Source: Desulfovibrio cuneatus DSM 11391
GTDB taxonomy: Bacteria; Desulfobacterota; Desulfovibrionia; Desulfovibrionales; Desulfovibrionaceae
Assembly: GCF_000430005.1 (NCBI RefSeq)
Contig: NZ_KE387019.1
Location: 1-53,562 of the forward strand
Direction: 5' to 3'
Length of the DNA stretch: 53,562 bases
Positions 51,398 to 53,410 of the stretch are shown here, in pieces; position 1 is the first letter of the stretch, and the number at the start of each line of letters is the position of its first letter. The translations under genes and the position numbers were made by a program. Under the pieces are notes generated by a model. It did not search any database and was not told the DNA's origin. It worked only from the letters and a program-made list of their open reading frames with translations.

Positions 51398-51904
51398 GTA
51401 GTACTCCTTGGCTTGTTTACGCCGTGCCGGCGGGTACGTTATAGCGTTCGGCAGAGGTGTGAAAAAAACTATCTTCGCTATTGCCGCAGGCTTTGTCAAT
51501 GCAGCATATGGAGGAAAACTCTGTTGTACGGCTCATCAGCCGGGGGGCACCGGGGCTGTTTGGCTTGCAAAATAACGCTACAGAGCGTGTTGTTTGCCGG
51601 TAAAATTACCTCTATATGATGTTTCTTTTGATGAAAAATTTGTCAGGAATAAAGAGAGAGCCAGAAGGTGAGGGGGAAAAAGAGAAAGACGCCCTTCATG
51701 TATTGACAAACCCCCTTTGGGCGTTTACCCCTAAACCAGATTACCTTTGAGATATTACCTTCTCAAGGTTCAGGGTACGTTTGGTGGCGTGCTGTAAACG
51801 CATGCAACAACTGTATGCCCTGTGCTACGGGCGGGTGCTTTGGTACCCCCAGAGCAATTTCAACGTGAAGTTGCTTGAGCTGTTAACAACTTTGGAGGCT
51901 TTAC
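51398..51904. other. Divergent regulatory region, glnH / HesB-like gene
   Basis: About 500 bases with no gene seen. It carries the leftward glnH promoter (AT-rich near 51600-51650) and a long plus-strand leader with several hairpins, including ACCTTTGAG/CTCAAGGT at 51743-51767, before the HesB-like start. Confidence 0.45.
51703..51731 (+). promoter_or_regulatory. Possible promoter for the HesB-like gene
   Basis: A consensus TTGACA (51703-51708) followed after 17 bases by TACCCC, a poor -10. If used, it gives a leader of about 165 bases containing several hairpins. An ACGCCC/GGGCGT dyad spans it. Confidence 0.3.
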
Positions 51905-52234
51905 ATGATAACCTTGACTGAAAAGGCCCAGCAAGAGCTGGATGCCTACTTTGAAGGCAAAGAGGTAGGCGCCATTCGCGTGTATCTTTCTGCTGGTGGC
52001 TGAAGCGGCCCACGCCTGATGTTGGCTCTGGATGAGTCCAACGACGCTGATTCCGTGTTCACCCAAGGACCGTACAAGTTTTGCATTGAACAAGATCTGC
52101 TTGCAAAAGTGGAAGCTGTTACCATCGACTTTACCTACATGGGCTTTTCTGTTGAACCCCAAGTCGCCCTTGGCGGCGGCGGTAGCAGTTGCTCTGTTGG
52201 TGGCGGTGGGTGCAGCGGTTGCGGTTCCCATTAG
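51905..52234 (+). CDS. HesB/IscA-like selenoprotein (in-frame UGA read as selenocysteine)
   Basis: An A-type iron-sulfur carrier-like protein of 109 residues if the TGA at 52001-52003 is decoded as Sec33. Before it: ITLTEKAQQELDAYF and IRVYLSAGG. After it, without a break in frame: SGPRLMLALDESNDADSVF, VTIDFTYMGFSVEP, and a cysteine-rich glycine tail (GGGGSSCSVGGGGCSGCGSH). In IscA/HesB the residue after this GG is the first conserved cluster-ligand cysteine (GGCSG), so UGA sits exactly at a functional Cys position. A SECIS-like hairpin follows at 52021-52042. GGAGG stands 6 bases before the ATG. HesB-like selenoproteins are known in anaerobes. A plain stop would leave a 32-residue fragment without ligands. 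Confidence 0.88.
52021..52042 (+). promoter_or_regulatory. Bacterial SECIS-like element
   Basis: GTTGG plus CTC (52021-52028) pairs with GAG and CCAAC (52034-52036, 52038-52042), with one bulged T at 52037 and apical loop TGGAT (52029-52033). The loop starts 25 bases after the UGA and has G in its first positions, within the usual 16-37-base window for SelB recognition. In E. coli fdhF the bulged U is on the 5' side; here it is on the 3' side. Confidence 0.7.
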
Positions 52235-52378: not shown

Positions 52379-52410
52379 GGTGCAGGTGTGCTTTTTGGCG
52401 TGCCTGCACC
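52379..52410 (+). terminator. Hairpin upstream of prmA
   Basis: GGTGCAGG (52379-52386) pairs with CCTGCACC (52403-52410) across a 16-base loop, followed by TGTTTTGC. Confidence 0.4.
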
Positions 52411-52510: not shown

Positions 52511-53410
52511 ATGGCAGAATTGGCACGGTTACGAATTGATGTGGCCCCGGAAGCGCTGGACGTGCTGGAAGGCATTCTTGCCATGTATGTGCCCTATGGC
52601 TGGGAAGAAGGCCAGGGGGAACAAGGCCGGGCCCGCTGCATTGTGCATTCAGGCCATCAGGGGTTTTGTGCGGAACTGGCAGAAACCGTGCGCCATCAAA
52701 TGCCAGATGCTTTCGTGCAGTTAGACACAGTGGAAGAACTGAACTGGGTGGAAGTATGGAAAGAATTTTTTACCCCGGTGCAGGGGGGAGAGCATTTTCT
52801 TGTTCTGGCCCCATGGATGGAAAAAGAACGGGCCGAAACAACCCGCATTCCCATTGTCATTGAGCCAAAAATGGCTTTTGGCACAGGCCACCACCCCACC
52901 ACAGCCCTGTGTTTGGACGCCATTTCCCTGCTGTTTGCCGAAGGGCACATTGCCCCAGGTATGAGCTTTTTTGACCTTGGCACTGGTTCTGGCATTCTGG
53001 GCCTTGGGGCTGCCAAGCTTGGCCTTGTGGGGGAAGGGGTAGACATTGACGGCCCTTCCATTATCAACGCCCTGGAAAACCGCGAAATTAACGGCCTGAC
53101 TGAGCAGCAGTTCCAACTGCGCCAGGGGGGTGTTGAACTGGCTTCCGGTGCATACCACCTGATAACGGCCAATATTCTTGCAGAACCCTTAAAGTTTATG
53201 GCACCCAATATTGTGAACCGCCTCGCCCGCCAGGAAACATTTGGCCTGCTTCCCCCGTTGCCCCATGAACGGCAGTTCGGCTGCCTTGTGCTTTCCGGCC
53301 TGCTGGTGACCCAGGCCGATGCTGTGGAAGCTGCTTATACCAGCCTTGGGCTACCCCCTGCGCGGCGTCTGGTTGGTGGGGAGTGGGCTGCCCTTATTTT
53401 CATGAGCTAG
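52511..53410 (+). CDS. prmA: Ribosomal protein L11 methyltransferase
   Basis: A 299-residue SAM-dependent methyltransferase that modifies lysines and the N-terminus of L11. N-terminal substrate domain (WVEVWKEFFTPVQGGEHF), then FGTGHHPTTALCLDAI, SAM motif I FFDLGTGSGILGLGAAKLG, motif II GVDIDGPSIINALEN, and ITANILAEPL. Start ATG at 52511 follows GGGAG; earlier codons in the frame lie within the terminator hairpin. Stop abuts element D. Confidence 0.94.
   Translation: MAELARLRIDVAPEALDVLEGILAMYVPYGWEEGQGEQGRARCIVHSGHQGFCAELAETVRHQMPDAFVQLDTVEELNWVEVWKEFFTPVQGGEHFLVLAPWMEKERAETTRIPIVIEPKMAFGTGHHPTTALCLDAISLLFAEGHIAPGMSFFDLGTGSGILGLGAAKLGLVGEGVDIDGPSIINALENREINGLTEQQFQLRQGGVELASGAYHLITANILAEPLKFMAPNIVNRLARQETFGLLPPLPHERQFGCLVLSGLLVTQADAVEAAYTSLGLPPARRLVGGEWAALIFMS

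Follow-up and report, generated by a model that had tools for sequence, protein, structure and literature searches.

A Probable Selenocysteine-Containing HesB-like Gene in Desulfovibrio cuneatus and Its Cysteine-Containing Relatives

The locus and its predicted product

The window, that is, the whole stretch of DNA analyzed here, comprises 53,562 nucleotides of Desulfovibrio cuneatus DSM 11391. Close to its 3' end is a reading frame (51905–52234) which terminates with a TAG stop and has just one TGA within it, at residue 33. As the initial annotation had described, translation showed that the frame is intact except for this codon. The features of the region are as follows (coordinates, strand, description, and basis).

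51894–51898, plus strand: GGAGG, a Shine-Dalgarno-like sequence 6 bases 5' of the ATG at 51905 (sequence)
51905–52234, plus strand: putative gene of a HesB/IscA-like selenoprotein of 109 residues, with position 33 occupied by Sec (profile matches and alignment)
52001–52003, plus strand: in-frame TGA, assigned to Sec33 in the motif U-S-G-P (TGA in 44 and TGC/TGT in 44 of 88 sequences at this column)
52021–52042, plus strand: SECIS-type hairpin of 8 pairs with loop TGGAT (52029–52033) and a bulged T (52037)
52172–52231, plus strand: tail rich in Gly and Ser that includes Cys 96, 103, and 106 (family alignment and AlphaFold model)
52379–52410, plus strand: terminator-like hairpin in the spacer that separates the gene from prmA (consensus match only; 5 such matches in the region versus 1.8 expected from shuffles)
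52511–53410, plus strand: neighboring gene for a prmA-like ribosomal protein L11 methyltransferase (TIGR00406, 133.1 bits, under the cut-off of 183.15)

Under the standard code, the only product is an open reading frame of 71 amino acids (52019–52234). Such a shortened frame had been predicted, and we confirmed that ordinary gene calling would truncate the protein in this way. The readthrough product is MITLTEKAQQELDAYFEGKEVGAIRVYLSAGGUSGPRLMLALDE...GGGGSSCSVGGGGCSGCGSH.

The readthrough protein matched the NCBI model NF038090 (IscA_HesB_Se) at 105.2 bits (cut-off 85, E-value = 1.8e-30). This single match joins residues 1–96 to positions 1–101 of the 101 in the profile and runs unbroken across the TGA. 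Sec- and Cys-containing forms exceed the cut-off alike (both copies of L039, L076, and L017). The Pfam domain Fe-S_biosyn (PF01521) was also detected (31.2 bits, cut-off 26.3); searched against the DNA of the genome, the same profile gave 24.9 bits for this gene, which is under the cut-off. The sequence U-S-G-P agrees with the U/CxGP motif, whose Pro is shared by 73 of the 88 aligned family sequences, and Arg25 and Asp49 are invariant in all 88. The window protein scored under the cut-offs of the selenoprotein model TIGR01911 (HesB_rel_seleno; 29 bits, cut-off 66.35), the general A-type model TIGR00049 (41.1 bits, cut-off 58.8), and the equivalog models of IscA, SufA, and ErpA (28.4, 19, and 21.4 bits; cut-offs 150.6, 136.2, and 117, respectively).

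A structural model was generated by AlphaFold2 from a 26-row family alignment. Its mean pLDDT was 83.9, and values below 50 were found in the tail, at residues 92–102 and 107–109. Using this model, Foldseek returned nine matches at E-value ≤0.001, which were chains of IscA, SufA, AQ_1857, and HI1723 together with one ODPA-YNER model entry; the top matches were IscA and SufA. A sequence-profile search of the PDB yielded five distinct sequences, namely IscA, yfhF (two), AQ_1857, and HI1723. The window protein is thus predicted to adopt the IscA/SufA fold, and the likeness to HesB/IscA noticed earlier is supported by both profile and fold. In two alignments, residue 33 corresponds to the cysteine of the GGCSG motif in the structures 1nwb and 2apn, which places the TGA at the first conserved Cys of A-type proteins, just as had been proposed. 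The Cys-rich tail is likewise a family feature, with Cys at positions 96, 103, and 106 in 85, 85, and 83 of the 88 sequences.

The TGA codon, its hairpin, and the Sec-decoding genes

The family was searched in 59 genomes (that of the window and 58 relatives) and was present in 55 of them. The fetched loci provided 92 distinct sequences, and 88 were aligned after four that were broken, masked, or misread had been left out. The column of residue 33 contains 44 U, 44 C, and no other residue. At the codon level, TGA occurs 44 times, TGC 36 times, and TGT 8 times, so that the Cys homologs have a Cys codon exactly where the others have TGA, a pattern which the initial annotation had suggested looking for.

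All four Sec-decoding genes whose presence it had made a test of the claim were found in the window's genome, which has a completeness rating of 96.29%: selA (contig C54, 571.6 bits), selB (C21, 310.4 bits, above the cut-off, with the C-terminal piece in the same frame), selC (tRNA-Sec, C6, 81.9 bits, anticodon tca), and selD (351 bits; L046, G000:C1:125612-126538). The selD gene itself has one in-frame TGA, implying that selenophosphate synthetase is probably a selenoprotein in this organism too.

According to the available text of PMC1088965, a bacterial SECIS element is a stem-loop that closely follows the UGA and whose small apical loop contains a G. In the window, the 8-bp stem, the TGGAT loop, and the bulged T are present as originally reported, and the loop, which lies 25 bases 3' of the TGA, agrees with that description. 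When the 50 bases from the TGA were folded alone, the z-score was −1.06 and 30 of 200 shuffled sequences folded as well. Mean folding energies were not different between TGA and Cys copies (P-value = 0.74); energies relative to synonymous shuffles were (P-value = 1.7e-4). At gathering scores, an Rfam scan of the window reported tRNA alone. Because the stability of the lone hairpin is weak and mean energies do not separate the two groups, we relied on the conservation of synonymous sites and on covariation.

Both were informative. Codons 41, 42, and 44 are GCT, CTG, and GAG in 42, 43, and 42 of the 44 TGA copies, and in 6, 25, and 12 of the 44 Cys copies, respectively. The motif GCTCTGGAYGAG(C/T) was found in 42/44 TGA copies versus 1/44 Cys copies (Fisher P-value = 3e-21, for sequences that are related and hence not independent). 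The two exceptions among TGA copies still form a stem: in L043 both sides of one pair are changed, and in L109 the register is shifted. An in-register stem of at least four pairs was present in all 43 TGA copies counted versus 2 of the 43 Cys copies counted. In an alignment of 43 TGA copies, 96.8% of the cells are paired, compared with 88.5% in shuffles, and the pair formed by columns 24 and 38 alternates among U-A, G-C, and C-G. The covariation score was 0.237 versus a shuffled mean of 0.104, a value not reached in any of 500 shuffles; the count of further pair types was not above shuffles (127 of 500 were as high). The hairpin claim draws its support from this tracking of the TGA copies; the window's fold taken by itself is weak.

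Most relatives have an unbulged stem, GGCTC/GAGCC or TGCTC/GAGCA, from which the window copy deviates in having either a bulge or a G-U pair. The bulged T is peculiar to the window, whose codon 45 is TCC (Ser) in place of the CCA or CCT (Pro) of many relatives. We considered T52037 as a functional SECIS bulge and rejected it, since pairing at this place is uninterrupted in most of the other TGA copies. Nor is it to be equated with the bulged U in the fdhF element of E. coli.

Two Cys copies, L026_823 and L059, were identified by their folds as retaining a six-pair in-register stem. Each is the sister, in the family tree, of a Sec copy from its own genome. Considering the stem and the Sec sister together, these stems look like remnants of a SECIS element after a Sec-to-Cys change. 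The family thus offers an unusually clean natural experiment, in which one gene occurs with either UGA or UGC/UGU and the recoding hairpin is retained almost exclusively in the copies that need it.

Distribution of Sec and Cys copies

Within the genus, selA was above the cut-off in 4 of 15 genomes (that of the window, G010, G011, and G014), and these are exactly the four genomes with TGA copies. Nine other genomes have Cys copies only, and G001 and G009 gave no family match. The relationship between the TGA form and selA was significant among the 13 genomes with a copy (Fisher P-value = 0.0014), several genus genomes being incomplete, so that single absences mean little. In G010, the frame of the TGA copy is broken upstream of the TGA, and the copy in G011 is partly masked.

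In G005, which shows the Cys form only, a partial selA match was observed (G005:C24:10721-11230, 213.4 bits, positions 17–184, under the cut-off). This may be a Sec trait in decay or the effect of a break in the contig.

In each of the 12 genus loci examined, including that of the window, a prmA homolog lies downstream in the same orientation, indicating that the Sec and Cys forms share one genomic place. Over all loci, this arrangement was found in 14 of 77. Analysis of the gene neighborhood in the 77 loci, generally some 1.5 kb to either side, revealed no informative partner, Fe-S client, or operon link.

A TGA copy is present in 44 genomes (42 from the main count, with G010 and G011 added), and 27 of these also carry a Cys copy. 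In ten genomes (G010, G014, G016, G018, G019, G023, G024, G026, G034, and G039), the two lie within approximately 1 kb on one strand; a divergent pair in G015, about 2 kb apart, was left out of this tandem count. Side-by-side Sec/Cys loci are L020, L022, L023, L026, L028, L030, L035, L039, L069, and L071. The passages available from the open-access literature that we searched make no mention of such Sec/Cys gene pairs.

Some genomes contain unusual copies. Eight family matches fall in G015, a genome of 2.5 Mb with a completeness rating of 100% (L061, L105, L106, L108, and L109 belong to it). At L109, two sequences were read without the Cys-rich tail, one of them with TGA in the motif CGURA. 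A second, diverged TGA copy in G026 (L107, G026:C31:4552-4797, minus strand) has the hairpin motif and hardly any tail.

A phylogenetic tree of 81 rows was built from 106 columns, which are few for so many rows, and its bootstrap values are not settled. At least 11 switches between U and C are required by the branches with good support, and six sister pairs, likewise well supported, consist of a U and a C sequence from one genome. The C branch is clearly longer in five of these pairs and nearly equal in the sixth (0.38 and 0.37). Repeated duplication with a Sec-to-Cys change would fit these pairs, and gene conversion between tandem copies could produce the same picture.

We also searched for other A-type carriers. 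Across the 59 genomes, PF01521 gave a match in nine, four of them above the cut-off. Eight of the 11 places listed belong to the HesB-like family, and the other three are in G003:C74, G006:C26, and G008:C74. No second A-type carrier was found with PF01521 in the window's genome; as this search misses most members of the family itself, its silence on other carriers is weak evidence. A tentative hypothesis, which we think somewhat less probable than its opposite, is that Desulfovibrionales rely mainly or exclusively on this gene for an A-type-carrier-like protein, and that it has been repeatedly duplicated into Sec and Cys partners retained together in a genome, frequently as tandem copies. The Cys protein might then serve as a selenium-independent understudy or pair with the Sec protein in a mixed dimer, and lineages without the Sec machinery, once lost, would be left with the Cys form only. 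If this is true, the species of the window, in which only a Sec copy was found, would need selenium for its A-type carrier. With both Sec and Cys copies per genome, this group also lends itself well to asking why an Fe-S-carrier-like protein should use selenium.

Interpretation and comparison with known systems

The column restricted to U and C, the hairpin linked to TGA, the sel genes, and the co-occurrence with selA together indicate a selenoprotein gene and not a pseudogene. Very probably, 51905–52234 encodes a Sec-containing member of the HesB-like family (NF038090), with Sec33 replacing the first conserved Cys of A-type carriers. That the UGA is decoded by SelB, tRNA-Sec, and the hairpin seems nearly certain from the sequence evidence. 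In the proposed mechanism, SelB and tRNA-Sec would act with the hairpin at 52021–52042 to insert Sec at the UGA (52001–52003), giving a product of 109 residues with a predicted IscA/SufA fold. The selenolate of Sec33, standing in for the first ligand Cys, and the thiolates of C96, C103, and C106, which would lie on a flexible Gly-rich tail, may hold an Fe-S cluster or iron. Given this explanation, a role as an Fe-S or iron carrier, suggested by the fold and the ligand positions, is in our estimate about evenly balanced. Weighing against it are the score under the TIGR00049 cut-off, the failure to find an Fe-S client or operon link in the neighborhood analysis, and the normal nitrogen fixation of a Methanococcus maripaludis disruption mutant (an unpublished observation cited in PMC11097638).

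The main rival to the carrier role accepts the same selenoprotein and assigns Sec33 a redox or metal-trapping function, such as a Se-S bond with a tail Cys or binding of soft metals, instead of Fe-S delivery. We regard this as a serious alternative, if a minority one. Both the UxGP motif and the Cys-rich tail are conserved in the family, and the low confidence of the tail in the model is compatible with a segment flexible enough to reach the Sec. In addition, the available text of a 2026 review (PMC13188914) considers most uncharacterized selenoproteins likely to be redox proteins. On the other hand, the best matches among solved structures, by both structure and sequence, are IscA, SufA, and their relatives, and the Sec is not part of a UxxC or CxxU pair.

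The TGA might also be a real stop, leaving a pseudogene or a 71-residue protein translated from 52019. The standard code does yield that frame only, and the broken TGA copy of G010 demonstrates that broken copies occur in the genus. This reading is nevertheless very improbable when the same codon is TGA in half of the aligned sequences and Cys in the other half, the synonymous sites of the hairpin are frozen in TGA copies, and the sel genes are present. A chance open frame, a pseudogene, or a frameshift was rejected on the U/C-only column and the frozen hairpin. Least probable of all is that a suppressor reads the TGA as another amino acid (e.g., Trp or Cys) without selenium, considering the Sec set with its tca-anticodon tRNA, the linked SECIS-type hairpin, and the confinement of the TGA form in the genus to genomes with selA above the cut-off.

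The preferred reading, a selenocysteine-containing HesB-like protein, describes a real gene of an already known family which is not new in kind. The initial annotation had overrated its novelty: HesB-like selenoproteins, including those of Desulfovibrio, have been in print since 2006–2007 (PMC1794560, PMC1914089, as far as their available text goes), and NCBI maintains a dedicated model, NF038090. In the accessible parts of PMC1794560, HesB-like is a bacterial selenoprotein family of 11 members with two Sec-to-Cys and no Cys-to-Sec conversions, and Table 3 places it in D. vulgaris and D. desulfuricans. The D. vulgaris protein is given as DVU_1382 in the portion of PMC1914089 that is available. 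The family is also listed in the available sections of PMC1088965 and PMC9312934, and the motif UxGP is assigned to HesB-like selenoproteins in those of PMC13188914. According to the accessible text of PMC11097638, the Sec of the Methanococcus maripaludis HesB-like protein was identified by mutagenesis and 75Se labeling, its function was called not clear, and a disruption mutant fixed nitrogen normally (cited there as an unpublished observation).

Compared with these systems, the window protein matches the whole NF038090 profile and differs from it in nothing of note except the small change in the hairpin. With DVU_1382 and its D. desulfuricans counterpart, likened here by published description only (PMC1794560, PMC1914089, in their available text), it shares the family name, the taxonomic neighborhood, and a TGA in the HesB gene. 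It also has the UxGP motif that PMC13188914 gives for HesB-like selenoproteins, the group to which the M. maripaludis protein belongs. It resembles IscA, SufA, and ErpA in its predicted fold, in its Pfam domain, and in the site at which these proteins have their first ligand Cys. However, it has Sec for that Cys, and it scores far under the cut-offs of these three proteins and under that of TIGR00049. Where IscA has CGCG, the window protein has a Gly/Ser-rich tail.
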